From Bactericera cockerelli (taxonomy: Eukaryota; Arthropoda; Insecta; Hemiptera; Triozidae), in assembly GCA_024516035.1 (NCBI GenBank), contig CM044956.1:10470176-10534175 (forward strand): a DNA stretch of 64,000 nt, in the 5' to 3' direction. Below are positions 4,424 to 46,071 of the stretch, one piece after another (positions within the stretch are counted from its first letter, which is position 1; every line of letters begins with the position of its first letter). Both the position numbers and the translations under genes were made by a program. The notes below the pieces were generated by a model that made no database searches, was not told the DNA's origin, and saw only the letters and a list, made by a program, of their open reading frames with translations.

Positions 4424-5667
4424 CTAGTGAATATCCAAGGTGTCCGAGATCCAATCCATGTACCGGGAGAGCCTCGTGTAGAGGCCGGGGAGTCTGGGCC
4501 TCGCGCATCCTATGCCCGTGGACACCAGGCCCACCACCTGAGCCTCGCCAGGGCCGGACAGCATCAGCGGGCCCCCACTGTCCGCCTGTGAGAGAAAACA
4601 CAAATGCAACAGTCAGTCCCGGTAGGGTAGGGTCTGGCCTGTGAGAGAAAACACAAATGCAACAGTCAGTCCCGGTAGGGTAGGGTCTGGCCTGTGAGAG
4701 AAAGCACAAATGCAACAGTCAGTCCCGGTAGGGTAGGGTCTGGCCTGTGAGAGAAAACACCAATTCAACAGTCAGTCCCAGTAGGGTCAAGGCGTCCGTC
4801 GGTCTGGTTATTCAGAGGTCGCGATTTCGAAACCCTACCGGGGCATGACTAGTTATTATAGTTGTCCTCCCACTTTTTGTCAACATAATGTAATACGTCT
4901 TGCTCTTACTGTTGGAATAATAGGACTCATTGGGAAGTATAGTATAAATCTTAATTGGGAAGTATAAATAAGGCGATATTCCTATATCCGCAGCATATAG
5001 GCGATCTTTTAAGTGTCCCTGACCCCCAGCTCATAACTCGCACACATCTGAGACTCCCGCACACGCATCCTCCTCCCTTCCACATACCCGCAGGCTTGAT
5101 AACTCACCCAGCAAGCATCCCTGCCCCCCTGCTCATAGCCCGCACACATCTGAGACTCCCGCACACTCATCCTCCTCCCTTCCACATACCCGCAGGCTTA
5201 ATAACTCACCCAGTAAGCATCCCTGCCCCCCTGCTCATAGCCCGCACACATCTGAGACTCCCGCACACTCATCCTCCTCCCTTCCACATACCCGCAGGCT
5301 TAATAACTCACCCAGCAAGCATCCCTGCCCCCCTGCTCATAGCCCGCACACATCTGAGACTCCCGCACACTCATCCTCCTCCCTTCCACATACCCGCAGG
5401 CTTCATAACTCACCCAGCAAGCATCCCTGCCCCCCAGCTCATAGCCCGCACACATCTGAGACTCCCGCACACTCATCCTCCTCCCTTCCACATACCCGCA
5501 GGCTTAATAACTCACCCAGCAAGCATCCCTGCCCCCCCGCTCATAGCCCGCACACATCTGAGACTCCCGCACACTGATCTTCTTGCCCTCAGCCAGGTAC
5601 CACTCCTGACAGCGCTGGTTGCTCAGGATGGACAGGTCGACTTTCTGCAGGATGTTGGACCTCTTGC
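4424..5667 (-). CDS. Trypsin-like serine protease, last two exons
   Basis: This is the C-terminal end of a secreted S1A (chymotrypsin-fold) protease. Exon 5516-5667 (minus) encodes a segment with MCAGYE and ends at GGRDACW on a GTGAGT donor. Exon 4424-4585 starts after an AG acceptor with ADSGGPLM and ends with [13 protein letters not shown] and a TAG stop. The catalytic Ser is in DSGGP. Asp six residues before it (DACWADS) predicts trypsin-like cleavage after Lys/Arg. The oxyanion position is Ala, not Gly, and the usual SWG reads STG, so activity may be altered. The His and Asp catalytic residues would lie in exons beyond the LINE and gap. Both ends of the intron between these exons are tandemly amplified. 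Confidence 0.85.
4586..4792 (-). repeat. 53-bp tandem array copying the 3' splice site (4 acceptors)
   Basis: The unit repeats at exact 53-bp steps: the motif CCTGTGAGAGAAA starts at 4585, 4638, 4691 and 4744. On the gene's strand each unit ends in TGTTTTCTCTCACAG followed by G, a complete polypyrimidine tract and AG acceptor. The array lies directly against the exon with the catalytic Ser. The most upstream copy is the most diverged. Confidence 0.92.
4788..4985 (+). mobile_element. SINE-2 copy inside the protease intron
   Basis: The B-box-like end of the head (GATTTCGAAACCCTACCGGG) is followed by ATGTAATACGTCTTGCTCTTACTG and GTATAAATAAGGCGATATT. It fills the space between the acceptor array and the donor array. 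The 5' part of the head is eroded. Confidence 0.7.
5011..5575 (-). repeat. 102-bp tandem array copying exon end plus 5' splice site
   Basis: GCTCATA recurs at 5029, 5131, 5233, 5335, 5437 and 5539, an exact 102-bp period. On the minus strand each complete unit carries about 21 codons of protease exon ([13 protein letters not shown] to DACW), a GTGAGTTAT donor and about 40 bases of intron. Five donors are present (around 5101, 5203, 5305, 5407, 5511); the one at 5511-5515 belongs to the real exon. Because 102 is a multiple of 3, spurious long open frames occur on both strands. One copy lacks the usual in-frame TAA after the donor. Confidence 0.93.
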
Positions 5668-5705
5668 CTGCGTGGGGAGAGAGAATAAGCGGGAGGTGTC
5701 AAGTC

Positions 5706-7574: not shown

Positions 7575-7674
7575 NNNNNNNNNNNNNNNNNNNNNNNNNN
7601 NNNNNNNNNNNNNNNNNNNNNNNNNNNNNNNNNNNNNNNNNNNNNNNNNNNNNNNNNNNNNNNNNNNNNNNNNN
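7575..7674. other. Assembly gap, 100 N
   Basis: Exactly 100 N, the conventional size for a gap of unknown length. The LINE is cut on the left side and the inverted-repeat arm begins on the right side. Confidence 0.99.
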
Positions 7675-9012: not shown

Positions 9013-9289
9013 AGAATGTCACATTTTTGTTTTACTTCCTATAATTCGGATAGTTTCTAATATTATAATTAGGAAGTATCGTGTTCATTTTTGTAATTTT
9101 AATTTATGTAATTTCTATGTATCTAAATAAATAGACATCAATAAATAGACATACAATAACATTTCCATCTGTCGTTTAGGCGTTGTCTAAAAAACGACTG
9201 TTTCGCCCGACTAATTCATAGATGTCGTGATTGCTTTGCTTCTGTCTTTTTCTATTTGGTCGATTTCCTTGACACAGGTGGGTCTGTTA

Positions 9290-9441
9290 TAGTTGTTCTG
9301 GGAACATAGGTGGTTCTATCATAGTATTGTTCTGGGAACACAGGTGGTTCTATCATAGTATTGTTCTGGGAACACAGGTGGTTCTATCATAGTATTGTTC
9401 TGGCAACACAGGTGGTTCTATCATAGTATTGTTCTGGGACT
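9290..9441. repeat. 34-bp tandem repeat, about 4.5 copies
   Basis: The unit contains TGTTCTGGGAACACAGGTGG and TTCTATCATAGTAT. On the minus strand each unit ends TGTGTTCCCAG then AAC, which resembles an acceptor, but the pyrimidine tract is weak and no exon is established here. Confidence 0.85.
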
Positions 9442-10099: not shown

Positions 10100-10101
10100 T
10101 C

Positions 10102-10659: not shown

Positions 10660-13600
10660 CTCTCCAGGAGTCGCCTCTTCAGTTCCGGCGGGTAGGTCAC
10701 GTAGATGTACTGCTCGTCTGGACTCAGCTCGGGGTTGTACTGAGAGTGGTGGGGGGAGGGGCTGTCTGTCACACTGTTGCTGCCTATACTGAGGTCATCC
10801 GAGCTGGGATAGGGGGGAGGGGGGAGGGGAGAGAGCAAAAAGTTATCATATTTTTTTTTTTTTAAGTTTCCATTTATTTATTTTTTACACTAACATCTTC
10901 TACAAACAATGAGGGTATACCCACCTTCAAAAGATAAAAAATCTTGTGCTGAAGGTGGGGATAGTTTATTTTGTCTTATTCCTCAGAAGTTTGCATAAGC
11001 TTAGGAGATGATATTAAGAAATATTATTACTGTACAAATAAAAAAACCATTTTCTTCAATTCGATTTTTTTTTTTAAACAAGATTCGTGTTTTATTTGTA
11101 CATCATTTCATTACAATGTTTTCTACATATAACAATAACGCATAATAAATAAATAAGTACTTAAATTTATTATTTTTTTCGTGTCGTGGCGTGAAAAAAT
11201 ACATCACAAAGGTAAAATAAAGTTCATAAAATTATATCATAGACACTGGGTATTTCAACCACTGATTCTGCTTCTATACACTATACTCACTCAAAGAGAA
11301 CCCAGATGATTCTGCTCCTACTATACTCACTCAAAGAGAACCCAGATGATTCTGCTTCTACTATACTTACTCAAAGAGAACCCAGATGATTCTGCTCCTA
11401 CTATACTTACTCATAGAGAACCCAGATGATTCTGCTCCTACTATACTTACTCAAAGAGAACCCAGATGATTCTGCTCCTACTATACTTACTCAAAGCGAA
11501 CCCAGATGATTCTGCTCCTACTATACTCACTCAAAGAGAACCCAGATGATTCTGCTCCTACTATACTTACTCAAAGAGAACCCAGATGATTCTGCTCCTA
11601 CTATACTTACTCAAAGAGAACCCAGATGATTCTGCTCCTACTATACTTACTCAAAGAGAACCCAGATGATTCTGCTCCTACTATACTTACTCAAAGAGAA
11701 CCCAGATGATTCTGCTCCTACTATACTTACTCAAAGAGAACCCAGATGATTCTGCTCCTACTATACTTACTCAAAGGGAACCCAGATGATTCCGCTCCTA
11801 CTATACTTACTCAAAGAGAACCCAGATGACGTAGTAGCAGAGACACAGGCCCAGGGACAAAACCATGACGAACACGAAAACCAGACCCCAAGGAAAACCC
11901 TTGAGGTCGGACAGTGGCTCCTCCCAGTACCTGTCGCAGGTGAGGTACCAGCACACCGCCTGGTTCAATTCGTCTGGGAAGTGCAAAGAAAATAAGTTTT
12001 AAGTCTTAATAAACTTCATCATCATCATAGGGTGGCGTCATCGTGAACGATGGTAGCCAGACAGTGGAGTAATGACTCAGCAAGGCTAGTAATTGATAAG
12101 GGCCCCCAGAACCAAGCCAACGCTGGTCTACTCCCTGTTTATACTTAGTTTATAAACTTCATAGAAGTCAGCAAAGATCCCATATTTAAAGCAATAAGTC
12201 CATTTTGGTGAAAAAAATTCGTGACCTTTTTGGTGAAACAAATCTATCACTGCCCCGCCCCGTTTATCAGGTAGAGTTTAATTTAAATGGAACTAAAACT
12301 AGAAGCTAGAAGATTAGGTATTTCCTGAGAACATACCTGAAAATAATAAGATTTTAATATAAAAGTCGTAGATATCAAAAAAGCTGTATGTCTGAATCTA
12401 TCTACGTTACAACATTTTCATGCACATATAGTTAATTATAACTATCGATGTGCTTACGTAGTTAAAATAAATTTATTAATTTTTAACTCACCTTCAACTT
12501 CCCTGAAATCTTCCACGGATAAGTTGATCAGAAGACCCAGAATGCAGTCTCTGACGAGGGCCTGAAAAAAGGAAGAAAAATTCTTGAACGACGAAATATT
12601 GAATATTCCTCAGCTTGTTCTATCAGTTCTAGCATACTAGCCCACCCAATGTGTGGAATTATCCATCTTGCGAATTTAAAGTTTTAAATTTAATTTATTT
12701 GTGTGAATCCAGAGATTCCAGAGGTCGTGGGTTCGAAATGTCGCATGACAAGTTATCCTCCCATTTGGGATAGAGCATAGGTACTGCTGGAATAATGGGA
12801 CTTTAATAGTCCTTATCGGGCAGTATAAATAATGCGATATTATTATTATTATTATTTGATTTACGATTACTGTGGGTGTGTCTGCAGGTCTGCTAAAAAT
12901 AACGACCGTTTAATTAATTTTCTCAAATTTTATTCCATCTAAAATTAAAATCCTGATGTACTTTCAGGGGATATTCATATTGAAAAAAAAAAAAAAAAAA
13001 AAAAAAAAAAACATTTAAACACCCTAATAAAAAAGGACATTGAGACTCAGCGTATTGTTTCAAAGGTCATAATACAGTAACGGTTTTTATTTATGAAGTT
13101 TGCCCTATAGCTCTCATCGCTTGCCCTAAAGTTTGCACTAAAGCTCTCATAGCTTGCCCTAAAGTTTGCCCTAAAGCTCTCATAGCTCGTTCAGTGTTTA
13201 CCTCGCATCGTTGTTTCAGCTTAAAGAGCTGGTCCGGACGGCAGTTGGCCTTCAACTTTTGAACATCTTGTGTGCGTTGTTGTTTAGGTGGGACTGATGA
13301 GTCCACTAGATTGTCGCAGGTGGCGTTTCCCTCCCCGTCTTGATTGCTCGGCGCCTCCGACCTAGAAAATATCAAGAATATCATTAGCCAAAGTCGATGG
13401 CACATTGAATACACCAGTATTTTAAATGTATATCAAATTTAATTTTATCTTTATCTTAATTGTTAACATTCAGTAATGTATAAATATACAGTAAATTGAT
13501 TCCTGGTTAAGTTTTTCAGCGATTGTAGGGTATAACACCCGTCGTGATATGACCAAGCAGTAGAAAGTGACGTCAAAACCAAAAAAAGAAAGAATATCAT

Positions 13601-16016: not shown

Positions 16017-16046
16017 TATCTCGTTCTCGTTTAAATTTGTTCCTGT

Positions 16047-19000
16047 TTGACATTTGAAATGGAAGATTTCAAAAAACTTCCCATATTTGATGGCGAAAAT
16101 TATTCAAATTGGCTATTTCGCGTCGAAACTTTGTTGGAAGCCAGAGGAGTTGATGCAGTCCTTACTATTCCCAGCGATTCGAAAGACTTCAAGAAAAAAG
16201 AAGATGCTACAGCCAGGTCCATCATCATTCAATGTATCTCTGATAAATATATAGAGTATGTAAGGGACAAAAAGACAGCAAAAGATATGATGGATGCATT
16301 GAGTCAAGTGTTTCAAAGAAAAAGTGTGATAAATAAGTTATATCTTAAGAAAAAGTTCCTTGGTCAGAAACTTAAACCAAAAATGAAGCTAGAAGATCAT
16401 TTTCTTAATTTCGACAAATTGATACGCGAGTTGGAAAATGTTTCAAATGGAAGACTGGAGGAAGAAGACAAAGTTTGCCATTTATTACTCACTCTTCCTA
16501 ACAGTTTTGACAGCGTGGTGACTGCTTTGGAAACAATAAATTCAGATTTGAAGCTGGACTTTGTTAAAACCCGTTTACTTGAGTTTGAATTGAAACAAGA
16601 GTCAAATAAGGAAGATGTTAAAGAAGAAGAACTTGAAGATGTATCTATACAAGAATCAAGTTTTCTTATGTGCTATGGATGTGGGAAGAAAGGCCACAAG
16701 AAATTCCAATGTCCAAATAGAAAAACATACTTCAAACGCCAAAATCAAAATGGTAGAAATACAATAAGTCACGTATCAAACGCAGAAGATGGTGAGACAT
16801 TCACAGCAGTTAACGAGAATTATGCTTTAAATTCACAGCATATTGGAGAGAAAATAAATTTTCTTCTGGACTCCGGAGCTTCTGATCATATGGTGTCATC
16901 AGAATATGAAGACTTAATGAGTGAAGTGAAAATGCTCGAGAAACCGATTTCCATTTTATAGCAAATGGTGAGCGTATGATTGCAACGAAAAAAGGACGTT
17001 TAAACATAAAACATGAGAAAACCAAAATTTCAATAGAAGCTCTATTGGTGCCGAATCTATCTGTGAATCTTATATCAGTGAACCAACTCACTAGAAAAGG
17101 ACTTGAAGTGATATTTAAAGATAATAAAGCTACAATCAAAAGTGATTCTCTCGATTTAATCTTAAATAAAATCGGGAAAATATATAAAATTGCATTTGAT
17201 CTTATTCTACATAATTCTGGTCAAGCATTAAACACAAATAATGTTGATTTAACATTGTGGCACAGACGTATGGGACATTTGAATAGACGAAGTCTTCAAA
17301 GAATGAAGCTCCCAGTAAGTGATGAAGTCTGTTCAGATTGTAGAAAAGGTAAAGCTACAAGATTACCATTCATAAGTTGTAAACTGCCACGCTCACATCG
17401 TATTGGCGAACTTATACACACGGATTTGTGTGGACCAATTAATCCTCCAACAACTAATGGAGAAAGGTATTTTCAAGTCATAGTGGATGACTACTCACAC
17501 TTTACAAAAGTTTTTCTACTCAAACAGAAAAATGAGGCTACTAAAAATGTTATCAACTAGGTATGTGAACAGTATTGAAGCTGAACATGGTACACGAGTT
17601 TTCAAGATTCGTTGTGACAATGGGGGAGAATTCTTAAACAATTCTCTTCTAGAATTTACATCACAGAAAGGGATTCGACTTCAAACAACAGTACCTTATA
17701 CCAGCCAACAAAATGGTGTAAGTGAAAGAATGACTCTTCTTGATAAAGCCCGATGTATGATATCTGATTCCGATTTATCCAAGAAAATGTGGGGTTATGC
17801 AGTTAAAAGTGCTGCTTACTTATTAAATCGGTCCCCTACAAATGCTCTGAATGGAAAAACACCATCGGACAGATGGTATGGAGAAACTGATTTAAGTAAA
17901 ATCAGAGTATTTGGTTGTAAACTTTGGTACTCAATTCTACCAAAGCGTGGTAAACTTGATGATCGTGCTGCAGAAGGAAGACTCTTGGGATATATGGACA
18001 ATGGATATCGAGTGTTAGATATAAAAACCAATGTTGTTCATGTGGCTCGTGATATTATATTTCAAGAAAGAAACAACAGTTCTAATAATATAAAATTGGT
18101 TCCCGATTACTTTGATTTATTGAAAAATAAAAGTAGTCACTGTGGCAGAGCGAGTTAGCGCGCTAGGCATTGCACACATGGTGACCTGGGTTCGATTCCC
18201 AGCGGGGGAGGATTTTTTCTGCTCTGTACTAGGATGTTCGGGGTCCACTCATACCTCGTGAGGAAAAATGAGTAGCTGCTTTAATGTGAAGCAGCGACCA
18301 GTGGCAGAATCTTAGGCAAAAAAATAATACAAGATATTATAAATTAAAGTGGTAAAGTCCTATGATTCTGCGCTACCCACTAAAATTGTGACATAATAAC
18401 ACAAAGAAAAAGCATTATTATTATTATTATTGAAAAATAAAACGAAAGAAGAAAATGAATTTAATGATGGTGAAAATGACATTGAAAATTCCTATAATCA
18501 TCAACATGATATTGAAAATGAATTTAACGATGGTGAAAATGACATTGAAAAATCCTATGAAGATAAACATGATATTAAAAAATTCTATGATGTGGAAAAT
18601 GAAATTCCCGAAAAAGAACTCAGACAAAGTTCAAGAGTAAAAAAGAGACCGGTACGTTTTGGTTTTGATGAATATGAAACGTACGAAGCTTGTTGTATGT
18701 TCATTTGTGATGATCCAGTCACGTATGAAGATGCCATTAAGTCAGAAGAATGGACAGATGCCATAAATAATGAGTTGGATGCTCATGAAAAAATGAAAAC
18801 TTGGGAAGAATGTGATGATGTGCCTAAAGACCATCGTCCAATTTATACAAAATGGGTTTTCCGTACAAAAGAAAACAATGTCAAAAAGGCAAGACTTGTA
18901 GCAAAGGGCTATCAAGAAAAAGTTGAGGAGCCAATTTATTCTCCTGTTGCCAAATTATCTACAGTGCGATCACTTCTCTCTCTTTCTGTTCAAAAGAATT

Positions 19001-20203
19001 GGAAAGTAACACAAATGGATGTACCAACAGCATTTCTAAACGGTAAACTTGAGAAACCTGTTTATATTAAAATTCCAAATGGGTTAAAAAACTGCAAAGG
19101 TAAAGTCCTAAAGCTAAACAGAGCACTCTATGGTCTAAAAGTAGCTCCCAAATGTTGGAATGAAACTTTTAACAATTTTGCTGAAAACATTGGATTTACT
19201 CGTTCCAAACATGATGTTTGCTTATACACAAAAGAAAAGTGTATAATGGTTCTATATGTTGACGATATTTTGCTGATTGGTGAAGAAACAGACAAGACTG
19301 TTTTGGAACTGAAAAAACAGTTCAATACTAGAGACATGGGAATCTTGTCAACATTTCTGGGGATTGAGTTTGAGTACAAAGGAGATAAACTTCTATTTTC
19401 TCAAAAATCAATGATTAACAAGATTTTGGAAAAATTTGGTAGGTATGTCACAGTGTAATGGAGCAAGCACACCATTAGAACCTAACTTCCTTGTGACAAG
19501 AGAAGATGAAATGGAACTTATTGATGTTCCCTATCGTGAACTGATTGGAAGTTTAATGTATATTTCAATGGGGTCAAGACCCGACGTAACGTTCGCTGTG
19601 TCATATTTGAGTCGGTATCTCGATAAACCTAACAAGAAAGTTTGGGTAGCCGCAAAAAGAGTTTTGAGATATTTACAAGCTACTAAGTTTATGTCAATTG
19701 TGTATGAGAAAACTGAAAATATGCAACTGTGTGGATATTCTGACTCGGATTGGGCTGCAGATATCACTGATAGAAAAAGTGTATCTGGTAGTGTAATATT
19801 TTTCTGTGGTAATCCAGTGACGTGGTTCTCAAAGAAACAGAATTGTGTTACTCTATCTTCTACTGAAGCCGAATATGTTGCAGGGTCACTTGTTAGTGCA
19901 GAATTAATAGCATTAAAGGGAATTGTCAAGGATCTCACTAATCAAGATGTTGATACTGTACTTCTTATGGACAATCAAGGAGCTATTAAAATTTCACAGA
20001 ACTATGAAAATTCAAAACGTAGTAAACACATAGATGTGAAATATCATTTTCTGAAAGACTCAGTTCAAAAGAAAGTTATTCTTATTCAATATGTGGAATC
20101 AAAGGAGAACATTGCAGATATTATGACCAAACCACTAGGGAGATGTATTTTCGCTATTCATCAAGTTTCCCTCAAACTTATCAAAAGTGATAATTACCCT
20201 TGA
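16047..20203 (+). pseudogene. Copia gag-pol, broken in four places
   Basis: Segments: 16047-16961 gag with a CCHC zinc knuckle (CYGCGKKGHKKFQC) and protease LLDSGASDHM; 16976-17560 pre-integrase (LWHRRMGHLN) and integrase start (HTDLCGP); 17487-18158 integrase with DNGGEF and QNGVSER; 18430-19458 reverse transcriptase with TKWVFRTK, QMDVPTAFLNG and the catalytic YVDD; 19436-20203 RNase H with DSDWAAD and STEAEY. Breaks: a one-base loss near 16945, a 4-bp gain at about 17558, the SINE-3 insertion at 18133, and a 4-bp gain at about 19439. Pieces otherwise read clearly. Confidence 0.93.
18133..18428 (+). mobile_element. SINE-3 inserted in Copia pol
   Basis: Head GTGGCAGAGCGAGTTAGCGC, GGCATTGCACACATGG, GGGTTCGATTCCCAGCGGGG. 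Body with GGGGTCCACTCATACCTCGT and AGGAAAAATGAGTAGCTGC. ATT-repeat tail. The target duplication ATTGAAAAATAAAA is at 18119-18132 and 18429-18442. Confidence 0.94.
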
Positions 20204-30780: not shown

Positions 30781-30785
30781 CTTTT

Positions 30786-33373: not shown

Positions 33374-33425
<52 letters not shown>

Positions 33426-35012: not shown

Positions 35013-35045
<33 letters not shown>

Positions 35046-38000
35046 ATAATTTCAACACTATATTTATAATTCTAATTAATTATAATATAGCAATAACTGA
35101 AATGTTTAAAAGATGTCAGGTTTTGTATCTAAATTATTATAGTGATTCATTGCTGCATAAATGGGTGATTTCAGATAATGATTGTTTCGAGAGTTTGGCA
35201 GAGCAAAGAAAGTGGATGAATTGGGACGCAGTCCTGGGATGGGTACTTTTATGTTAATGTTAGATACTAGATATGGGCTGTCTATTTCATTATTAAGTAT
35301 TTTTTTAATAAGATTTATCAGGGTCTCGTTAAATCTTGTGTTTACTGAGTCAATGGGAAGATTTTCTCTGAGTGTCTAATTTACTAAAGATCTCAAAATT
35401 TACTAAAGATGAGAGTAAGAAAAGAAAATTTCGTGAAAAATGCACGAAATAAATGAGTTAGTTTATCATCTCTGTTTAGTCACAATTACCTACTCAAACC
35501 AGCCTTACTTTAATTCGCCATGACACTGATTTAAACTCGAAACATCCACGTCATGCGTCTGCTTGCTACTTGAATATGAAAGGAGCATTCAGAGTGAAAG
35601 GTCATGTGGACAGAGCAAGGCCCAGTAGTGATTCGCTGTGTCTGAAGCTATTTTTATCCCAAGTCCCTGACTCCCGTTCAGCTTCAACATTTTTCCTCTC
35701 CCCGTATAGGTAAACGGCGCTCGAGATAATTCAATTCACAATTAAGATTTTTTCGACAAGTTTAATTAATATGCTAGAAATCGTTCAAAAAATTGGTTAA
35801 TCAATATTTAATTAGTTAAAATGTGCACAGTATTTGCTATATCTATAGATATAGTCCTATAGCTAATCTTCGGAAATAAAAAGTGAACCTTAACTTTTAA
35901 TAACATCGTTAACGATTTAAATATTTTTGTTTCTGGAGCGCGGCGCGGCGGTGTGATTAATGTCTTAGTCATAGTCTTCTAGGTCATCATCATATAGCAG
36001 CTTGATCAAAAAAGCTTATCTTTACCAAGCGTGAGGTAGACAAATTTTTTGAATAATAGATTACAACATCTTCAGTGAAAATGCTCTTGTATTTACTTAC
36101 AAAAATCGAGCCGGACATATGTGAATAACCTAAGCTTCTAAACATATACTTGATTCATATAATATAAATATCATGATGGTTCAGTAATATTAAAAAAAAA
36201 AAAAAAAATGTAACTATTTACTATAAGAATAAAAAATTCAAGAAAAATCTGAGAGAAAAATCTAATAGTTCGTGTTTTATTTTTTAAAAAAATCCGTTTT
36301 TGGTGTCATTATGTCGATCAGCGGGAAAATACCCGTGGTCGTCCTGGAAATGATGGAAAAACTGAGACGACAGCGGGCCAGAGAACAAACTTCCAAAATT
36401 GGTAAGAAAACTAATGGACAGCCCAATGATCGTTCTTGTCAAAGTAGCAAGGACCTCGCTGGCAAGACATTTGTCCCTGAGAAAAACTCGAACGAACAGA
36501 CGAACTCACTAGACGTCCAGGATCCAAGATATGAACATCCTGTAATCAGACCTCAGACCTCAAGTCATCGAACATTTGATGGCATTCAGGGCTCAGCATA
36601 TCAAGGCGCCATAGAGTCTCAAACGCCAAACTATCAAGAACCAAACCCTCAGACATCAAGCTATCAAGGAGCTCACGTCACTCAGTCACTCAAATCACAG
36701 CCTATGGACCATCAGGTGTCAAGGTATCAAGAAGATAAACTCGTGACTCAAAACTGTCCCAAGTCTCAGGGACCTACATATCAAGGAAACAGTCAGGCGT
36801 CTTATCAAGAGGCTAAGAACTCTCAGACGTTAAGATATCAAAAGCCCAACTCGCAGCCTCCAAGATATCAAGAACGCAGAGATTCGCAGATTTCTCACAC
36901 GCTAAACTATCAAGAGTCCAACGCGCGAACTCGATATCAGGACTCCCCACGATATGAAGACCCTCCTCTGGAGAAGCTTCATTCAGCGCACATCGTTCAT
37001 ATGCAGGCCAAACGGGCCATGCCTCCACCCAGCTACGACTATGGCCAGTACCACATGAAGCACCCAGGCTTCCCCGCCACCATGTCTACTGAACACTTCC
37101 TACACGAGCACATGGCGCCCTCCATGCTCATCCACTCCCCGCCGCCCCCCGGCTACATGCAACCCTGCCCCCCCTGCCCCTCCTACCACGTCTGCCCCGT
37201 GATGTCGCATGACTACCACTCCTGTGCGCCCCCCGGACAGTGTTGCCAGACGGGTCCCCTGCCCAGCTTCTGCCCCTTGGGCGGGGGCCCCTGCTCCCCC
37301 AGATGAAGAGGCACTCTTCCTACTTGCAAATGCCGCCCGCCGCGCCGTCTCAACAAGCGCTGTCAGGTACTGAACTGAACTGAACTGAATGGAGTGTTTA
37401 TTTGTTCTTTTGTATGTTTTGATCACTCATTTGTACTTATCACAAAAAATAGTTACAGGAAAAAAGTTATTTATTCGTTTGTTTGGCTTGATTCCCTTTG
37501 AAAATAGGTGCCATTAGCACAAGTAACTAAACTTATAGATAGCATAATTATTATGTAAAAATCTGGTGTAAACATCACACGACTTTCCTTATCCCCCAAA
37601 AAGAAGTCGAATTCCGCCACTGGTGACTCAACGGTTACGGATACTTAAAAATCAGTGCCAAATTCGTAATCAGCACCTTAAAATCATTGGATTTGATATG
37701 TCGCAACCCCCATCTAGGGTAAATAATAAAAAGTTAGTCCAAGCGGGTCCCCCCAAAATACCGGTAAATTGGGGCCGGGTTCCAAAAAGTTCAAGATATC
37801 AAAAAAATGATAAGAATAGACCCCTATTATTTTTTTAATCCGAGAAAATGTTGTTCTCTAATTTTTTTTGTATCTTTAACCAATTCAAAGAAGCGGCGGT
37901 TGCGGCCAATATTTGCGGCCCTGCGGCCGCATCTTGCGTCCGATTTCAACCAAAAGTTTCGTGGTTCGTCTCGTGTATAAAACTAATTTGCATACCAAAT

Positions 38001-41000
38001 TTCAAGTCTCTAGCTCTTACCGTTCTTGAGATATCCTGTTTACACACACACACACAGACAGACGCACGGACCAATGGCTGAAAACAACTTTTTTGGTATC
38101 CTGAGGCTGTGATTCGTCCAGAAATGTGAAAAACTGGGTAGGTCAAATTTTCGACGAATACAATACTTTCCTTATTATAGGATAAGGAAAGTAAAAATGG
38201 GGAAACCCGTTAATTTATAAAAATAAAATAAATAAATAAAGAAGATCCTATTGTGACCAGGAAAACCATTCCTTATATAAATATTTATAGTCTGGATGCC
38301 TGTTTCAAGGTACTAATAAAATGTTTGGACCGTTTTAACTTTTTATAGCTTATGTTATGTAAATTTCAGTACCGATTGATGCCAATGCTCTAGAAATTCA
38401 AGATGGCGTCCAAGAATTAGCCACTTGTTCGTATTGTTTTGCATTTTTGCTTCTAACTTCTAAATCATACAGAAATAAGTAAATGGAGAACTCGTACATA
38501 ACCTGTCCCGTAAAATCGGCCATCTTGTTCAGTTTTAACACATAGGAAATTACAGCAATAACAAATTAACTTTTCTTCTTACATGCTTCGACAGTTAGTA
38601 GTACTAAAACAGGAGGCAGTACTTCTTGTTCTAAACATTAAATTAAACTCATTAAAAAAAAAGATGAGTGTTTCACAGCCGTTTTTATTTCGTACCCATG
38701 AAACAGGAGCTACTGTAGACGCTTGTGGTCTGTATTGTAGCTTACCTATCCCGTAGTATGCCTCCCCTCTGATGGGCGAGAAGTGACACAGTACTTCCCA
38801 ATGAGGTGCTGGGTCAACACGAGCGCACCGGAAGGTATCCCTTACAAACAATTGTAACTAAATTAAGAATAATTTTTTTGTCGGCACGGGGATCGAACCC
38901 CGGGACCTTCCGCATGGCAAGCGAGTGCTTAACCACTGAGCTATTCGTGCACTTTTGCCGGAAACTTTTTAATTTTTATAGAAAAAAAGTACCTCAGCAA
39001 ATAAGCTGAATTGAAATCAGTCGTTCTAATGTATACTTTTCGTTTTGATGTATGTATTATTTTTGTTCCAAATTTATTTATTTACATGCTTTGAAGCAGT
39101 AACGGTAGCCACCATTGTAGTCTCTTTTACGGGACGGATTTATTACCCATGAGATATACGATATGACGTCTCCATGTACTTATTTCTCTATGTTGTGAAT
39201 GACACATGTTTACACTAATTTTAATTGAAGTACTTTAACATGTGCCCGATGTCTATTGATATGTAAACTTAAGTAGTTGTTAACAATGTAAGTGGGTACT
39301 GAACGATGTAAAGTCAACACTTTACTATGATTAGTGACTTGAATTAAAAATATATCTGGAAATATATAATAAATATCTGTATTGATTGATGTGAATTTTG
39401 TTAATTTTATTATCTCTAACTAGGTACATGTCATTATTTTTGTACTACAATTTGTTACGCATTGAGAACAATATTATCAAAAAAATAAACCTTGCCAATC
39501 TGTCCTGTAGTTTTGGATGGATTGCTACTTAGAGCTTCATGAAACCCGTAAAAAACACAAGAGAACAGAAAACCACGAAAAGCACGAAAAGAAAAACAAG
39601 CGTGTATTATTAAAAATCAATCTAGCAATACTTCCCATTTAGGTGCTGGGTCAACACAAGTGGAATAGAAGGTATCCCTTACAAACAATTGTAACCAAAT
39701 TAAGAATACAAATGTTTGTCCGCACGGGGGATCGAACCCGGAACATTCCGCATGGCGAAACTATAAAATGTATATTTAATATACTAAAATCCTGTTATAC
39801 ACTGTAATCCCGTTTCGTTGTACTTTGTATTTCTTATATACTTCTATCTTCATACGTTCAATATTGTACTTTTCTATCATCTTATCCTATCAATATCCTA
39901 TCAAAGCACAAGATTTTTTCAGCACAAGATTTTTTATCTTTTGAAGGTGGGTATACCCTCATTGTTTGTAGAAGATGTTAATGTAAAAAATAAATAAATG
40001 GAAACTTAAAAAAAAAAAAAAAAAAATGTAAAATGTCTAGAAAATAAGGAGACATTGTAATAAATAAATAAATAAAAATACTTTGTTTCAGATTTCGGCG
40101 ACCCTCATAGTCCGCTGGACGGCCTGGACAATCACCCGGACCTGGGGGTGGGGTCTATGGTGGAGGTGCTGGTGGAGGGGGTGCCACACTACGGGGTCAT
40201 CCGGTGGCTGGGCCAGGTCTATATGCAGGGGGACTCCATGCATGGGCTAGACACGGTGGCGGGGATTGAAATGGTGAGTCTGGGAGAGTTGAATCCATTG
40301 ATCAGGGGTGGGGTTATGGTGGAGGGGGTGCCCCACTACGGGGTGATTCGGTGGCTGGGCCAGGTCTATATGCAGGGGGACTCCATGCATGGGATAGACA
40401 CGGTGGCGGGGATTGAAATGGTGAGTCTGGGAGAGTTATTATTATTCTTCTTCTTATAGTATGCTTTATTAGGAGGACAGAGTACAATGGTAACAGTATA
40501 CAATTAAGAAAAAACAAACAAATGACAAATAAATAAGTAAAAAAGAAAATAACAATAATGTCCTACCTAAAGGGCGGGGTTTTTGCCTGTGGCGATCTCC
40601 ACCCAACCCTTTTGAAAGGCTAACTAAAATTAATGTAAAAGATAGAGTTGAATCCATTGATCAGAGGTGGGGTTCATGGTGGATATGTTATTGGATAGTA
40701 GGGCTCCGGTTATTTATTTATATACACTTTATTTTTTTATGCAAAACAATCAACAATTTTATAGAACAAGGGAAAAAACTTAAAAAATATACAAAAAGAA
40801 AACAAATTTATAGAACTTACAATCAACTTGTTAAAACAAAACTTGATCTAGAGTAGTGCTAATGCCAACAGCATTCTCTTCCGCACCACCCTTACTATTA
40901 CAAATAAGATGGGGGAGTAGACCAGCAGTCTGGCTGGGGGACTATAAACAGGGAGTAGACCAGCATTGGCTTGGTTCTGGGGGTTCTTGTCAATTATTAG

Positions 41001-44000
41001 CCTCCTTATAAAGACAGTGGTAGAAGTGCTGAGTCATTCCTCCACTGTCTGGCTACCATCGTTCACGATGACGCCACCCTATGAATGATGAAATACATTT
41101 AAAATTGTATGCTGAACAAAACCGTTTGTCCTTTTATTTAACACGTTCATGATATTTAAAAAAATATTTTTGAAGTGAATATTTTTTTAAATAAATAATT
41201 TAAAGTGTGAGTGCTCCCTAAAAACTTGACGTGCTCATAATCGTGGTATGTTTGACGCCACCCTATTATTATGATTATGAATCAGCCACTAAGTTCTCCC
41301 CCCTCTGCTTCTCAGGAGCAGGAGCACGACCTCTTCTGCGATGGCCACATCAACAGTCAGCAGCGCTTCGTGTGCAACCCGCGCCGAGGCCACTTCGCCC
41401 CGCTGTTCCAGTGTCGGCGAGACCCCCGCTTCATCGAGTCCCATCACTGCTCTGTGGAGCCCCCCTGTGCGGCTCTAGCGGCCGCCTCCTCCCCGGAGCA
41501 GGAGTTCGGGGGCATCAGCTGCCCCATCATCCCGGGTGCTGTGCCGCCCCCCAGTAAGGAGAACATCGAGGACCTGTGCGGAAAGTTCCGCGGCATACAG
41601 GGTCACCACAACTCCTGCTACCTGGACGCGACGCTCTTCGCCATGTTTACGTTTACAAGGTAAAGTTAAAAGTTAGATCGATGGCACGTTGAATACAGAA
41701 GTTCTCGTTGTGTCATTGATGTTAAGCAACGTCCAGCGAGGTTAGTAATAATAATAATGTCGCCTTATTTATACTGCCCGATTAGGACTATTAAAGTCCC
41801 AATACTCCAGCAGTAAGACATATTATTATGTGGTAAAAATCCCAAATGGGAGGTTAATTTGTCATGTCCCGGCTGGGTTTCGAACCCACGACCTCTGGAT
41901 TCTCTGGATTCACAGAGTGCCGCCTTTACCACTGAGCTACCGGGACATTAGTTAGTACTTGGATGGTTGACTATTAAAATTTGAATTCTCGTGATGCTGT
42001 CTATTCCTAGCCCCACTCATTTGTGGGGTTAATTTTAGTAGCTGGTTTGTGAGTTTTAAAATAGTCAAAAGCGACGTTGAACTAAACTAAAGAAAGAGTA
42101 TACATTAGACATCCTACTGTGAATTTATGAGAAAAATTTATTATTATTATTTTACACTTTATAAGATACTAGCGGGCTTTCGCCCGCTTTGCGGGTCGAG
42201 GCATGGCCCGCAAAGAAAAAAATCCTTTTTCGCCAATGCAGGTGTTGTAGTGGGAATTTCGAAAAATCCCGTCTTATTGCACATCGAGACTATAAGACAA
42301 AGCTACCTACCAAATTTCAGCTTCCTTGGACTTACCAGTTTGGAGAAACAGTGATGAATCAGTCAGTCAGTGAAACTCTCTTTTATAAGTATAGATAAAT
42401 GGACATAATGTATAATACCAATAATTATTTTAACAATGAAAAAAAAAAAAAATAATAAAAAAAAAATAATTACTATACAATGAAAATGAAAAAGAAAATT
42501 TGAATCCTAGGTTAATTTATATAGGTGTTTTCTCATATTTTTTTTTATTTATTATTATTTTCAAACGCATCATTTATGATGCAATTACATGAAAATTTAT
42601 ATAGCATAAGTAGCATAACCACCGCTGTGACGTGCTCTCCTCTTGCCCCGCAGCGTGTTCGACAGCCTCCTGTTCCGCCCGCCCCCCGACCCCCAATCCC
42701 CGCACTACACCAGGGTGCAGCAGGTGTTGCGGGAGGAGATCGTCAACCCGTTGCGGGCTAATCTCTTCGTGCGGGCAGACCGCGTGATGCATCTGCGGCA
42801 CCTGCTCAATGATCTGAGTGATGTGTCCGGACTTACCACTGAGGAGAAGGTGAGTTTTAACATGGTTGATGTACAAAATACCTACCTCTGCTCAATGATC
42901 TGAGTGATGTGTCCGGACTCACCACTGAGGAGAAGGTGAGTTTTAACATGTATGATGTACAAAGTACCTACCTATTCTTATTATCTGACATGTATCCGGA
43001 CTCACCACTGAGGAGAAGGTGAGTTTTAACATGACGATGTTGTTGTTGTTGTAGCCAGCTTGGCAACAGCTGGAGGGGTGAGAGATGGTCTCCAGCCAAC
43101 TTTATTTCAAAGTGATGGTCTCCAGCCAACTTTATTTCAAAGTGATGGTCTCCAGCCAACTTTATTTCAAAGTGATGGTCTCCAGCCAACTTTATTTCAA
43201 AGTGATGGTCTCCAGCCAACTTTATTTCAAAGTTGGCTCGTCCTGAACCACATATTTCTATGTGCAATCAACCATCTTGAGGACTTGGACTTTTCTTTAT
43301 AAGCCATTAACTCTGATTGTTAAGCCTCCTCTGTAAATAAATATCATTAAAAAAAAACCCTTAGGAAACTGTAAGCTAGCCTGGCTTTTAAGAATTGGCT
43401 AAGTCTGTTCTCTGTTTATAGTCCTCTAGCGACTATTTATGATGTACAAAGTACCTTCCTATTATTATTATCTGACCTGGTTGCAGGGTTTTCAGTGAAA
43501 CCTCTACAATTAACACTGCGGCCTAATTAGATCCATTGTGACCAGTTGATTAATAATACTCCTTAGTGGAAGGTAACCACCAGGCGAGGTTAATGCTCAA
43601 AGCATTTTCTACCACGTAACCCTCAGAGTCTTATTGTTATGTGGTCACAAACTCAAATTAAAGAGGAAAAATTCGTGCACTGGGTGGGATTCGACACAAC
43701 GGATCCCTACGCTACCTGGATTACCAGACTAGCGTGGTAACCACTTGACTACCAGTGCACATTAACGTCTACCACATTAACGATTCTACTTGGTTTTAAC
43801 GTCCTGATTGAGATAGATAGTCAGGACGGGGGTTTTACGCTCTATTCGCTGGGAATCATACCATCTACCCACATTAACCTCACCAAGCCTGGGTAGGGCC
43901 GAAAATGCCAGCCTCACGTGTTTGGAGGGAACAGAATTTCCTTGGAAAAGTCTGCCACACTCGGGGATCGAACTCGGGATCTCTGGACTACGGGCAGTAG

Positions 44001-46071
44001 TCTCAACCGTCACGCCACGAACCTACCTTTGTAAACAACTAAACACCTAGGTAAACAATAAACATATCTAATTTTCCGATTGAGCTGTCCAACGGCTCAA
44101 CATATCTGGGTCAGAACGAGTGTTCTTTTACGTATATCATTTAATCACTTACGAGTATATAATTATCTCTTTTTTATTATTATTGGATATTGTTATACTA
44201 GGTTTATCTTTCCGAACAATATCGTACTGTATGTTTTATTGTTATATTCATGTAAATAGAGCTTTGCTCGTTTAATAAATGAACCGATAAACCCGGTGAT
44301 AATATATTATCTTTATTTACAGACCTAACAATCAGAGTCCTCGCTCCCAATATTATCTTTAAATATCGGAAGTATTGTGTTCGTTTTTGTTTATAAAAAA
44401 ATTGCTCTGATTTATTTTTTGCATAGCTTTTTTGCTTCAACTGTACCTACTTGTTCTCCTCCCCCCCCCCAGGACCCGGAGGAGTTTCTCACCTCCCTGG
44501 TGGCGCAGATCCTCCGCGCAGATCCCTTCCTCAAGCTGAGCTCAGGCCAGGAGGCGTACCACTACCAGCTCTGCTCTAATAACTCTACTTATTCTTCCCC
44601 CTGCTTTAAGCACAGAAAAAAATCTTTTCCACCTAAATCCTTTAATAAAACTGTTTACTCTCACTCATCGGTCCCACGCATTCTCATCCTATACATCACA
44701 TTTGCACAAGAACTAGATATAGGGATAAATAGACTGGCATACATTAATACTCTACATACGAGGGCGGACCCAAAAGTAACGGGAATTAGGTGGTGGGGGG
44801 AACACGGAGGGGGGGATCGGGTTCTCCAGTGATTGTTTTCCAAGTGGCCACTCTCCCAAGTAAGTGTGTAAAGTTCATTTGCTGTGAGTGCATTCGTTCG
44901 CCCGTGAGAATTTTTCTAGTGAAACGACTTTTTCCGTTTCGGCGAAAACGTGAAATGGCTTCAAGAACGGACAAAAACATTGAACAAATCAACACTCTTG
45001 TCCGTGAAGACCTTGCCGAACCATCGATCAACTTTATGAGATGTCTGGATAGTCATGGAGTTCAATTCAGAGGATTTTAACTGAAGATTTGATCATGAAG
45101 AGGATTGCAGCCAAATTTGTTCCTCGCCTTCTCTCCTACGATCATTTTGTTCCGCAGCGTCGACTTCAGGCCTGTCTGGAGCTGCAAAATCAGTTGGATT
45201 AAGACCCAGATTTTTTTCTCAAGGTTATAACTGGCGATGAATCATGGTGCTACGGCTATGACCCCGAATTTTTTACAGCCGCTCGTTGATCTCCGCACTC
45301 AGCCATTTCACGTTGTCATTTCACGTTTTCGCCGAAACGGAAAAAGTTGTTTCACTAGAAAAATTCTCACGGATGAAGGAATGCACTCACAGCAAATGAA
45401 CTTTGCACACTTACTTGGGAGAGTGGCCGCTTGGAATAGAATCATTGGAGAACCCGATCCCCCCTTCCGCGTTCCCCCCACGACCTAATTCCCGTTACTT
45501 TTGGGTCCCCCCTCGTACAATATACAAAGGGTAGCACCCCCAGCACGATTATTGATCATTAATATTATTGTTTTTATTATTATTATAATTATTTTTAATA
45601 ATTAATATTTTTTAACATAGATATATATTTATATTATTTTTCCCCTTTGTAAATTTTCATGTAATTGCATCATAAATGATGCGTTTGAAAATAATTTAAA
45701 AAAAAAAAAAAATGTATACACTTACTCTCTCCCCCCAGGACCCGGAGGAGTTTCTCACCTCCCTGGTTGCGCAGATCCTCCGCGCAGATCCCTTCCTCAA
45801 GCTGAGCTCGGGCCAGGAGGCGTACCACTACCAGCTCTGCTCTAATAACTCTACTTATTCTCCCCCCCCCCCTCCCCCCCAGGACCCGGAGGAGTTTCTC
45901 ACCTCCCTGGTTGCGCAGATCCTCCGCGCAGATCCCTTCCTCAAGTTGAGCTCGGGCCAGGAGGCGTACCACTACCAGCTGTTCGTGGAGAAGGACGAGC
46001 GGCTCTGCTTCCCCTCCGTCCAGCAGCTGTTCGAGCAGAGCTTCTTCACGTCCGACATCAAGCTCAAGGAG
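30786..46071 (+). CDS. CYLD: CYLD-type deubiquitinase (multi-exon, incomplete)
   Basis: CYLD removes Lys63- and Met1-linked ubiquitin chains and restrains NF-kB and JNK signalling. Visible exons: 30786-31349, 32219-32474, 33034-33282, 34396-34647, 36311-37366, 40092-40273, 41316-41659, 42654-42849, 45883-46071. All internal junctions except the start of 36311 agree in phase. A CAP-Gly domain (MVEVLVEGVPHYGVIRWLGQ) and the start of the USP domain with the Cys box GIQGHHNSCYLDATLF are clear. The segment with LREEIVNPLRANLFVRADRV and DPEEFLTSLVAQILR follows USP order. Oddities: an in-frame TGA at 33207, a frameshift at about 37300, exon-end duplications at three exons, and no exon for the zinc-binding or His box. 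The final exons may be in the gap at 46328 or elsewhere. Confidence 0.88.
31897..32160 (+). mobile_element. SINE-1, diverged copy in CYLD intron
   Basis: TGGTTAGCTTAGTGGTAAGA, a shortened head lacking the anticodon region, TAGGTTCAATCCCTAGAGCT, TTGTTTGTAAGGGATACCTT, ATGGCTACAAAATAAA and poly-A. Confidence 0.8.
32219..32474 (+). CDS. CYLD: CYLD exon 2
   Basis: Acceptor TTTTTTCTAG, donor GTATGA. Encodes DKYEEGQLSGRVPGKGAFPF, VIVIASDRIRITAPALMP and a Pro-rich linker (LPPSPPPVDNYVGQLI). Enters at phase 0 and leaves one base over. Confidence 0.75.
33034..33282 (+). CDS. CYLD: CYLD exon 3 with in-frame TGA
   Basis: Acceptor AACCTTCAG, donor GTAAGT. Encodes RDRVVWLGDDGPMPGVILEF (CAP-Gly-like), then IPDVP, TGA at 33207-33209, then in the same frame AESSAAELMKHEDFYDKAG. 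The donor at 33283 fits the phase of the next exon. An earlier GTGAGC at 33206 would remove the stop but gives the wrong phase. Confidence 0.7.
33369..33420. repeat. Poly-A run of about 50
   Basis: Uninterrupted A from 33370 after GAGAGG, in the intron after CYLD exon 3. Confidence 0.9.
33778..33957 (-). mobile_element. SINE-4 copy
   Basis: Plus reads CCCGGAACCGATTTCGCATT, CCATGCCATTCCGGAAACGG, GATTCGAACCCGCAACCTCC and GAGCCACGGAGGTCG, the reverse of the copy at 29415. Confidence 0.88.
34131..34341 (+). mobile_element. SINE-5 copy
   Basis: GCACTGGTAGTCAAGTAGTT, ACTCTGGTAATCCAGGTAGC, CGTTGGTTCGAATCCCACCC, then the body to CTTCCACTAAAGAG and the ATT tail. It lies close to the acceptor of the next CYLD exon. 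Confidence 0.88.
34396..34647 (+). CDS. CYLD: CYLD exon 4
   Basis: Acceptor AATTCCAG, donor GTAAGT. Encodes DLYAMDSCDRSCQASSDNGR, a run of nine prolines, and a Ser-rich end (PNLSSSSSNLD). A disordered linker; phases fit exon 3. Confidence 0.72.
34648..36310. other. Long intron or second promoter region
   Basis: Contains a poly-T run at 35009-35041 and no named element. No acceptor that fits exon 4 is visible before 36311, so a second transcription start for the following exon is possible. Confidence 0.35.
36311..37366 (+). CDS. CYLD: CYLD linker exon with YQ repeats, frameshifted at the end
   Basis: Opens at ATG 36311 (MSISGKIPVVVLEMMEKL). The middle is low-complexity with about eleven YQE/YQG-type motifs spaced 8 to 20 residues. 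The end is Pro/Cys-rich (SPPPPGYMQPCPPCPSYHVC). The frame stops at TGA 37304, but the frame that joins the next exon reads QMKRHSSYLQMPPAAPSQQA up to the GTACTG donor. The switch falls at the GGGGGCCCC/CCCCC homopolymers around 37283-37300, consistent with one missing base. The start is unresolved: no acceptor fits the phase of exon 4. Confidence 0.65.
37575..38200 (-). repeat. Hairpin-ended dispersed repeat, long form
   Basis: Its terminal hairpin is ACTTTCCTTATTATAGG then ATAAGGAAAGT at 38168-38195. The element runs leftwards through ACTGGGTAGGTCAAATTTTC, a CA microsatellite, ATTGGGGCCGGG and CGCCACTGGTGACTCAACGG. An internally deleted copy in the other orientation is at 57738-58025. Confidence 0.75.
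38665..38955 (-). mobile_element. SINE-1, full-length copy
   Basis: Plus reads GATGAGTGTTTCACAGC, TTTCGTACCCATGAAACAGG, GTCAACACGAGCGCACCGGA, GGGGATCGAACCCCGGGACC, CCGCATGGCAAGCGAG and CACTGAGCTATTCGTG. Confidence 0.88.
39626..39762 (-). mobile_element. SINE-1, truncated copy
   Basis: CTTCCCATTTAGGTGCTGGG to GGGGGATCGAACCCGG and CATTCCGCATGGCG. Lacks both the SINE 3' end and the outer head. Confidence 0.75.
39908..40027 (+). repeat. Short retroposed repeat, second copy
   Basis: Reverse of 10850-10962: AAAGATTTTTTATCTTTTG-type start, AAGGTGGGTATACCCTCATT, GTTTGTAGAAGATGTTAATG and a poly-A end. Confidence 0.7.
40092..40273 (+). CDS. CYLD: CYLD CAP-Gly exon
   Basis: Acceptor TTGTTTCAG, donor GTGAGT. 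Encodes DFGDPHSPLDGLDNHPDLG and the CAP-Gly core VEGVPHYGVIRWLGQVYMQG, GLDTVAGIEM. It leaves phase 0 into the next exon. CAP-Gly domains of CYLD bind NEMO and microtubules. Its 3' part is duplicated downstream. Confidence 0.85.
40171..40435 (+). repeat. 147-bp duplication of CAP-Gly exon end plus donor
   Basis: GGTGGAGGGGGTGCC at 40171 recurs 147 bp later, with the exon up to GATTGAAATG and the GTGAGTCTGGGAGAGTT donor. The second exon copy (about 40318-40420) reads VEGVPHYGVIRWLGQVYMQG again. A third, partial start (GAATCCATTGATCAGAGG) is at 40649. Confidence 0.92.
40436..40645 (-). mobile_element. Retroposon fragment inserted in the duplication
   Basis: Separates the second copy from the start of a third. 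AGAGTT occurs on both sides (before 40437 and at 40646), compatible with a target duplication. The ATT/CTT-repeat at the left looks like a tail. Family unknown. Confidence 0.5.
40920..41095 (+). mobile_element. SINE-6 copy
   Basis: GGAGTAGACCAGCATTGGCT, CTTGTCAATTATTAGCCTCC, CCACTGTCTGGCTACCATCG and CACGATGACGCCACCCTATG. The unit GGGAGTAGACCAGCA is repeated at its start. Confidence 0.75.
41316..41659 (+). CDS. CYLD: CYLD exon with USP catalytic Cys box
   Basis: Acceptor CTTCTCAG, donor GTAAAG. Encodes EQEHDLFCDGHINSQQRF, a stretch of Cys and Pro, then LCGKFRGIQGHHNSCYLDAT; the Cys of NSCYLD is the expected USP nucleophile. Phase 0 at the start; two bases left at the end. Confidence 0.88.
41674..42090 (+). 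mobile_element. 5S-SINE split by a SINE-2
   Basis: 5' part 41674-41747 (GATCGATGGCACGTTGAATA, AAGCAACGTCCAGCGAGG) and 3' part from 41951 (GTTAGTACTTGGATGGTTGA, ATTCTCGTGATGCTG, AAAGCGACGTTGAAC) belong to one copy. Confidence 0.85.
41748..41950 (-). mobile_element. SINE-2 inserted in a 5S-SINE
   Basis: Plus reads ATAATAATGTCGCC, AAATCCCAAATGGGAGG, GGGTTTCGAACCCACGACCT and TGAGCTACCGGGACATTA. Target duplication GTTAGTA at 41741-41747 and 41951-41957. Confidence 0.9.
42172..42397 (+). repeat. Dispersed repeat, second copy of the 20707 family
   Basis: ACTAGCGGGCTTTCGCCCGC, TGTAGTGGGAATTTCGAAAA and the end CTCTTTTATAAGTATAGAT. Confidence 0.82.
42654..42849 (+). CDS. CYLD: CYLD USP exon, palm region
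   Basis: Acceptor CTTGCCCCGCAG, donor GTGAGT. Encodes SVFDSLLFRPPPDPQSP, LREEIVNPLRANLFVRADRV and HLLNDLSDVSGLTTEEK. The order and spacing match the USP domain of CYLD. The last about 36 bp with the donor are copied twice downstream. Confidence 0.87.
42814..43040 (+). repeat. Tandem copies of exon end plus donor (3 donors)
   Basis: CCACTGAGGAGAAG followed by GTGAGTTTTAACATG occurs with donors at 42850, 42936 and 43019. The first interval is an 86-bp unit that includes 42 bp of exon (TGCTCAATGATCTGAGTGAT onward). The third copy keeps only the last exon bases. A diverged intron piece of the unit recurs at about 43438-43480. Confidence 0.93.
43083..43232 (+). repeat. 30-bp tandem repeat, 5 copies
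   Basis: GATGGTCTCCAGCCAACTTT plus ATTTCAAAGT, five times, nearly perfect. It starts about 60 bp after the third donor copy. No splice signal inside. Confidence 0.95.
43555..43762 (-). mobile_element. SINE-5 copy
   Basis: Plus reads ACTCCTTAGTGGAAGGTAAC, AGTCTTATTGTTATGTGGTC, ACGGATCCCTACGCTACCTG and TTGACTACCAGTGCAC. Confidence 0.87.
43763..44344. other. CYLD intron, no gene seen
   Basis: Holds a tRNA-like B-box word on minus (GATCGAACTCGGGATCTC near 43964), probably another old SINE on the minus strand (about 43795-44030). Confidence 0.4.
44473..44610 (+). pseudogene. First copy of CYLD acceptor and exon start
   Basis: After a C-run and AG comes DPEEFLTSLVAQILRADPFL, KLSSGQEAYHYQL, then CTCTGCTCTAATAACTCTAC, which is intron sequence. 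It is an exon fragment with a working-looking acceptor but no donor of its own. Confidence 0.88.
44759..45515 (+). mobile_element. Mariner-like element with long inverted arms, degenerate
   Basis: TA at 44757-44758 and 45516-45517 flank inverted ends (CGAGGGCGGACCCAAAAGTA on the left). The ends extend into arms of about 190 bp each, so part of the left end was copied inversely to the right. Inside are transposase scraps: MASRTDKNIEQINTLVRED at 44955 and ITGDESWCYGYDPE near 45229. Most of the transposase is missing. Confidence 0.88.
45739..45882 (+). pseudogene. Second copy of CYLD acceptor and exon start
   Basis: A 144-bp unit directly before the complete exon: exon bases for DPEEF to YHYQL, then CTGCTCTAATAACTCTACTT, a C-rich tract and AG. 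It shares its intron part with the first copy. Confidence 0.9.
45883..46071 (+). CDS. CYLD: Last visible CYLD USP exon
   Basis: Acceptor after a long C tract, donor GTGAGA. Encodes DPEEFLTSLVAQILRADPFL, YHYQLFVEKDERLCFPSVQQ and LFEQSFFTSDIKLKE in one frame, entering at phase 0 after 42849. The next USP segments, including the His box, are not found downstream. Confidence 0.88.

Follow-up and report, generated by a model that had tools for sequence, protein, structure and literature searches.

The window, that is, the whole 64,000-nucleotide stretch of Bactericera cockerelli DNA analysed here, holds three genes that carry tandem arrays at splice junctions: a trypsin-like gene, CYLD, and a conserved insect gene predicted to encode a membrane segment, which we call gene B. 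Their junctions number 34 in all. Proteins of Diaphorina, Cacopsylla and other insects served to map the exons of gene B and CYLD; a Diaphorina citri protein shares 90% identity with gene B, with the whole query covered, and the comparison of CYLD with Cacopsylla melanoneura gave 72% identity with 37% of the query covered. The three junctions of the trypsin-like gene were placed on the basis of the Pfam match (PF00089) of the joined exons together with splice signals, and the least certain of the 34 are the CYLD junctions at 32293 and 37367. The window contains two 100-N joins. The terminal exon of gene B (1522-1707) lies on the plus strand and the remaining gene B on the minus strand, and no 3' exons of CYLD were found in the right contig of the window. 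Much of the stretches 16035-20203 and 46784-55451 consists of long retroelement open frames, which we take to be of copia-like, R2-like and other non-LTR types.

TRF detected 13 arrays in the window, covering 4,251 of the 64,000 bases (6.6%), and 33 arrays covering 12,215 of 197,089 bases (6.2%) in random sequence. An unusually repeat-rich window is thereby ruled out: the amount of tandem repeats in the window is ordinary, their placement is not. An earlier note on this DNA had claimed that six junctions of these genes each carry tandem copies of a block that spans the junction. All six arrays exist, and they are listed below together with an additional copy of one unit and an acceptor of gene B. 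The arrays were called by TRF, except for the 144-bp array, which is outside the TRF list and is clear in a self-alignment.

4584-4787, minus strand: 53-bp unit, 3.8 copies, trypsin-like gene; abuts an acceptor (exon start 4585); TRF
5016-5579, minus strand: 102-bp unit, 5.5 copies, trypsin-like gene; spans the donor GTGAGT at 5515; TRF
11280-11829, minus strand: 40-bp unit, 13.8 copies, gene B; spans the donor GTAAGT at 11810; TRF
11943-12000, minus strand: gene B acceptor of the same exon as the 40-bp array; exon start 11973; single in the window
40170-40437, plus strand: 147-bp unit, 1.8 copies, CAP-Gly exon of CYLD; spans the donor at 40274; TRF
42802-43040, plus strand: 86-bp unit, 2.8 copies, CYLD; spans the donor at 42850; TRF
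44459-44601, plus strand: extra copy of the 144-bp acceptor unit of CYLD, split off by an inserted element
45731-45980, plus strand: 144-bp unit, 2 copies, CYLD; spans the acceptor at 45883; self-alignment

The unit sizes given in the earlier note (40, 53, 86, 102, 144 and 147 bp) were borne out by TRF and self-alignment, and its junction coordinates agree within a few bases with our protein- and signal-based mapping, which places the donors at 5515, 11810, 40274 and 42850 and the acceptors at 4585 and 45883. When an array had to cover at least 6 nt on either side of a junction, 5 of the 34 window junctions were spanned. The 53-bp array, with 3 exon nt, fails this test; five arrays thus span their junctions, and the one at 4585 only abuts its junction. 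The 147-bp unit of CYLD has a partial third copy at 40644-40683, and the 86-bp unit has a remnant at 43435-43479. The 144-bp acceptor array is interrupted by an element with terminal inverted repeats (44759 to ~45520), which is presumably mariner-like.

Splice signals were copied along with the units. The donor motif GTRAGT is retained in all 14 copies of the 40-bp array, 3 of 3 of the 86-bp array, 2 of 2 of the 147-bp array and all five full copies of the 102-bp array; the acceptor AG is retained in 3 of 3 copies of the 144-bp array and in 4 of 4 copies of the 53-bp array, all four of which have CTCTCACAG followed by G. The claim that every copy keeps a splice signal therefore holds for nearly all copies, but not for the truncated sixth copy of the 102-bp array, which is without GTRAGT. 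In five of the window arrays the copies show 89-97% matches (TRF), with variants scattered among them. Splicing at distal sites of the 40-, 102- and 86-bp arrays would lead into stop codons (VSY followed by a stop in the 102-bp array), and the 147- and 144-bp units of CYLD are in frame and stop-free (49 and 48 codons). Part of the 102-bp array matched its own locus only, among the 45 matches listed (40 of 57 candidates were scored).

Other repeats of the window lie close to gene features. A 33-bp array (13096-13187) begins 14 nt into the intron past the gene B donor at 13201, with the donor uncopied, and a pentanucleotide run (ACTGA x4, 37367-37389) starts 2 nt into the intron at a predicted CYLD donor. 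A 34-bp array of five copies (9272-9439) is located ~90 bp past the stop codon of an alternative last exon of gene B (acceptor near 9552). Finally, an identical poly-A-ended sequence is present at 10865 and 40010, just upstream of the acceptors at 10803 and 40092, in gene orientation both times.

The chance of such placement inside the window was calculated from randomly placed segments of unit length; the 34 junctions and 14 arrays, 10 of them genic, entered this test, and all its P values are post hoc. Six units contain a junction (five without the abutting array), versus 0.52 expected for the whole window and 0.83 for the 10 genic arrays; the P values for five are 1.4e-4 and 3.8e-4, respectively. 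The test was weaker when whole array lengths were placed, with 1.84 (whole window) and 2.38 (genic) expected, P values of 0.005 and 0.013 for six, and of 0.024 and 0.056 for five. A sample of the genome is a better test than these post hoc values.

The sample, taken from the 565-Mb genome, comprised 70 exons with 140 junctions of kinase and ubiquitin-hydrolase (UCH) genes. The kinase set consisted of partial exons matching PF00069 (40 of 134 matches, 80 junctions) and the UCH set of partial exons matching PF00443 (20 of 64 matches, 40 junctions); both were hand-picked for short, stop-free open frames, usually taking one of each obvious pair. A third set (20 junctions) was made up of 10 of the 19 left-over kinase and UCH exons, chosen by small size before their sequence was known. 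Some of the sampled exons come from the same gene. The sampled junctions are predicted ones, chosen by a splice-site score, and 21 of the 140 score below the cut. Each exon was taken with 400 bp of flank on either side, and the question was whether a direct repeat includes the junction.

Judged by raw overlap with direct repeats, junctions show little or no excess: 11 of 80, 5 of 40 and 3 of 20 junctions were included in a repeat in the three sets, respectively, which gives 19 of 140; the controls were random positions (275 of 2,947) and positions in the intron at a distance of 200 bp (12 of 120). For the UCH set it had been predicted in advance that junctions would reach at least 8% and controls at most 3%. 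The junctions came to 5 of 40 (12.5%), as predicted, but the raw controls came to 111 of 1,178 (9.4%) and 275 of 2,947 (9.3%), contrary to the prediction. The reason that raw overlap barely exceeds the controls is that 6% of the genome is minisatellite sequence and that a long array takes in many positions. None of 60 exon middles was spanned by a repeat.

We therefore also used a unit-aware measure, which counts a position only when it lies in a copy whose partners are all on one side, for junctions the intron side; it was adopted after the raw control was known and was fixed beforehand only for the third set. By this measure 11 of 80 kinase, 4 of 40 UCH and 3 of 20 third-set junctions have intron-side copies, 18 of 140 in total, versus 73 + 57 of 2,947 random positions for the two directions, or 130 of 5,894 (2.2%; Fisher 6e-9). 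The GC-matched expectation is 3.4 of 140, and GC content as the whole cause is rejected since the excess stays after matching. Among window intron positions more than 300 bp from any junction, the figure was 13 of 782. The third set alone gives P 0.009. A stricter count, from which the donor of L092 (paralog or allele of L084) and the acceptor of L060 (poly-T, AG lost) were dropped, leaves 16 of 138 (P 8e-8), and among the confident junctions only, 17 of 119 have intron-side copies. The effect is seen at donors (10 of 70) as well as at acceptors (8 of 70). The partner copies were on the intron side in 18 of the 19 sampled cases; the exception, L070, has its partner copy on the exon side and is excluded from the 18. 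About 7 of the 18 are single copies 250-411 bp off rather than arrays.

Strict arrays (TRF period of at least 20, score of at least 100) span 8 of the 140 junctions, five donors and three acceptors: 7 of 80 in the kinase set, 0 of 40 in the UCH set and 1 of 20 in the third set. Plain coverage predicts 8.7 such junctions and the per-unit expectation is 1.5 (P 1.6e-4); we prefer the latter because the real junction sits in one copy of an array, not in all of them. The genome-wide enrichment that the earlier note had set as its test is present in this sample by the unit-aware count, by the strict arrays per unit and by the edge test described next, but not by plain overlap or plain coverage. Taken with the window test, these data uphold its view that placement at junctions is non-random.

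The edge test compares positions at the same loci. The exon-proximal edges of repeat clusters fall 19 times in exon positions -60 to -6 (54 bp) and 12 times in intron positions 0 to 160, a ~4.7-fold higher density inside the exon end than in the adjacent intron (conditional P 2.3e-5), and the profile peaks at the junction. Junction copies have a median identity of 92.5% (n=18), and background copies of 82.9% (n=130). In 10 of the 11 kinase cases and all 5 UCH cases, one or more of the partner copies has kept the splice signal. When the 19 sampled junction sequences were compared with each other, we found one related pair (L084 and L092, paralogous or allelic), and row L060a, which is poly-T, gave two short matches. 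As the earlier note had held for the window, the arrays are not one repeat family; a shared repeat or transposon family is rejected, there being no common unit beyond that one pair, and the 102-bp unit occurring at its own locus only among the matches listed. Repeat clusters are present at both junctions of the exon in L045, L051, L060 (acceptor poly-T), L062 and L084, which is no more than suggestive of clustering by gene, with both exon ends affected.

A second, inverted CYLD copy lies to the left of the window (G000:C2, ~10.43-10.45 Mb), and a copy of gene B at ~10.464 Mb. Among the kinase matches (PF00069), at least 12 pairs were seen by eye whose two members score almost the same and are separated by ~0.07-0.7 Mb on a single chromosome. 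The assembly looks inflated by haplotypes, and because of these many pairs we read the second copy of the locus as probably the other haplotype rather than a paralog. The left contig (window 1-7574; G000:C2:10408696-10478000) is probably also the other haplotype within the same scaffold, given the strand flip of the terminal exon of gene B and the inverted CYLD copy to the left of the window. The second locus copy has a nearly identical 86-bp array (441-bp match), and the 147-bp array is present there at 92%, as judged by aligned length. Copy number differs for the 40-bp array (13.8 in the window versus 6.8) and, by eye, for a 30-bp array at 43084-43233 (5 versus 3). The 144-bp CYLD acceptor array is present in the window and, likewise by eye, absent from the second copy, whose intron also has no counterpart of the inserted element. 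At the gene B acceptor (11973) the situation is reversed: one copy in the window and five in the second locus copy, spaced 78, 78, 80 and 110 bp. An intron is present at both array-free acceptors, that of gene B in the window and that of CYLD in the second copy. The acceptor arrays therefore look derived and the introns older, because the array-free copies already have the intron.

Our preferred reading, in which we have about even confidence, is that these are mirage-type minisatellites, named after arrays of amphioxus: a segment straddling a junction would be duplicated locally into the adjacent intron, and some of the duplicates would grow into arrays that are carried as passengers. Local duplication centred on junctions, array expansion, retention of splice signals and turnover are all observed; array units range from 26 to 147 bp with up to ~14 copies, and other copies are single or spaced up to ~400 bp away. 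For the preceding steps, we infer that breaks or (paired) nicks concentrate near the junctions of transcribed genes, and that near-blunt fill-in followed by rejoining would duplicate the junction segment; the microhomology at three array joints is 0-3 bp (by eye). Unequal exchange would afterwards alter the copy number, and single or spaced copies may perhaps be arrays broken up by insertions. The duplicates would survive as intron passengers, not as selected backup, because the original exon-adjacent junction remains intact. More broadly, and only tentatively, an ongoing genome-wide mutational process may act at junctions, whether donors or acceptors, with about 1/8 of them having a local copy and about 1/17 an array; it may be rapid enough for whole arrays to differ between two copies of a locus, and introns may grow by copying junctions.

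The second locus copy bears on two rival explanations at once. The haplotype-inflated look of the assembly, the second CYLD copy and the two 100-N joins in the window could raise the suspicion that the arrays were created by assembly or read error, but the variants scattered among copies, the element inside one array and the fact that the second locus copy has the 86-bp and 147-bp arrays as well make such an error very improbable; with some of the arrays in both copies of the locus, those the earlier note had seen are unlikely to be artefacts. It is equally hard to believe that the introns arose when exonic AGGT segments were duplicated in tandem, with the arrays as remains of that event. The parts of the literature compared describe this as a known mechanism in several eukaryotes (PMC3443670) and propose it from amphioxus mirages (PMC3087553), but the array-free copies of both acceptors have the intron, and in long introns the arrays take up one end. 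Intron gain by duplication is rejected at those two acceptors, where the intron is older than the array.

A bias of survival or detection is a more serious rival, although we consider it unlikely. Repeats would then originate evenly, exon duplications would be purged, and junction pairs would remain recognisable for longer, either through coding constraint or because intron ends are older than transposon-filled interiors. That minisatellites are common everywhere (6.2% of random sequence), that raw overlap shows little excess and that exon middles are empty (0 of 60) fit this explanation, under which a pair linked to an exon would be expected to decay roughly half as fast. Constraint, however, gives at most a ~2-fold effect, and the edge test gives ~4.7-fold in the same introns; junction copies are more alike than background copies (92.5 versus 82.9), the opposite of longer persistence; and the excess survives GC matching. 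Selection for splice-site redundancy, by which spare donors and acceptors would serve as a reserve for the real site or improve exon definition and so be fixed more often, appears improbable as the cause. It would account for the signals retained in nearly all window copies and in most kinase (10 of 11) and all UCH cases (5 of 5), for the effect on both donors and acceptors, and for the two in-frame, stop-free CYLD arrays, from which distal use would still give protein. But with copies this similar (89-97%), the signals would be expected to persist even without selection, the distal sites of the 40-, 102- and 86-bp arrays meet stops, and two arrays are missing from one of the two locus copies; such selection is possible but not needed. 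The earlier note had also offered R-loops and slippage, and neither these nor redundancy selection is established as the cause. The case for R-loops is weakened by a comparison of sense-strand G-richness at 33 of the 34 window junctions, in which the sense strand is G-rich at the four donor arrays and the reverse holds at the two acceptor arrays. A cause by R-loops at donors only is rejected on this ground and because donors and acceptors are both affected (10/70 and 8/70).

If the mirage-type reading is right, the copies at junctions might feed new introns, alternative exons and in-frame protein repeats, for which the two CYLD arrays are open. The measured frequency, the controls and the before-and-after copies allow one to test whether local duplication has its hotspots at splice junctions, and how a genome tolerates duplicated splice sites. 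Gene annotation is also at risk, as intronic near-copies of exon ends can mislead gene models.

Among related phenomena, the model of tandem genomic duplication (AGGT model; passages of PMC3443670) holds that local duplication copies splice-like sites and so gives introns; the psyllid arrays differ in that an existing junction was copied into an existing intron, and the two empty copies retain their intron. Earthworm metallothionein loci have intronic minisatellites and duplicated fourth exons missing from the final transcript (PMC12783039, in part); unlike the psyllid arrays, these repeats are not stated there to span splice junctions, and they serve as a lead only. Compared with ordinary intronic minisatellites, the psyllid arrays do not stand out in unit size or copy number (genome comparison: 33 arrays in 197 kb), but the exon-proximal edges of their clusters lie within the exon more frequently than in the intron next to it.

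The closest counterparts, a precedent that the earlier note does not mention, are the mirages of amphioxus, so far known, in the literature found, from a handful of genes. They are described in the passages compared (PMC3087553, PMC3902484) as tandem repeats across both 5' and 3' exon-intron boundaries of Adh3, troponin C, the globins BflGb6 and BflGb9, and PGBD5, with units of ~10-160 bp, splice signals in many copies and haplotypes that differ in copy number. In the globin paper, how they are generated is described as unclear, and unequal or intra-strand crossing-over is put forward to explain their changes in length. A full-text literature search, which covered little subscription literature, found no insect case of junction-spanning minisatellites. 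Like mirages, the psyllid arrays span the boundary (five of six in the window, and 8 of 140 sampled junctions by TRF, the remaining intron-side copies being possibly non-tandem), occur at 5' and 3' boundaries, have units unrelated from gene to gene and retain splice signals in many copies. The copy-number variation between mirage haplotypes would have a parallel in the 40-bp array (13.8 versus 6.8) and in the two arrays present in one locus copy only, if the second copy is an allele and not a paralog. For mirages, undisturbed regular splicing (by RT-PCR) and somatic length instability belong to the description as well; the features in which the psyllid arrays match them are those of the sequence. 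The psyllid arrays differ from mirages in their insect host, in a frequency determined with controls in a genome sample, and in the empty sites at two acceptors. The frequency data and the empty sites are absent from the amphioxus passages compared, and the same pattern is now seen in an insect.
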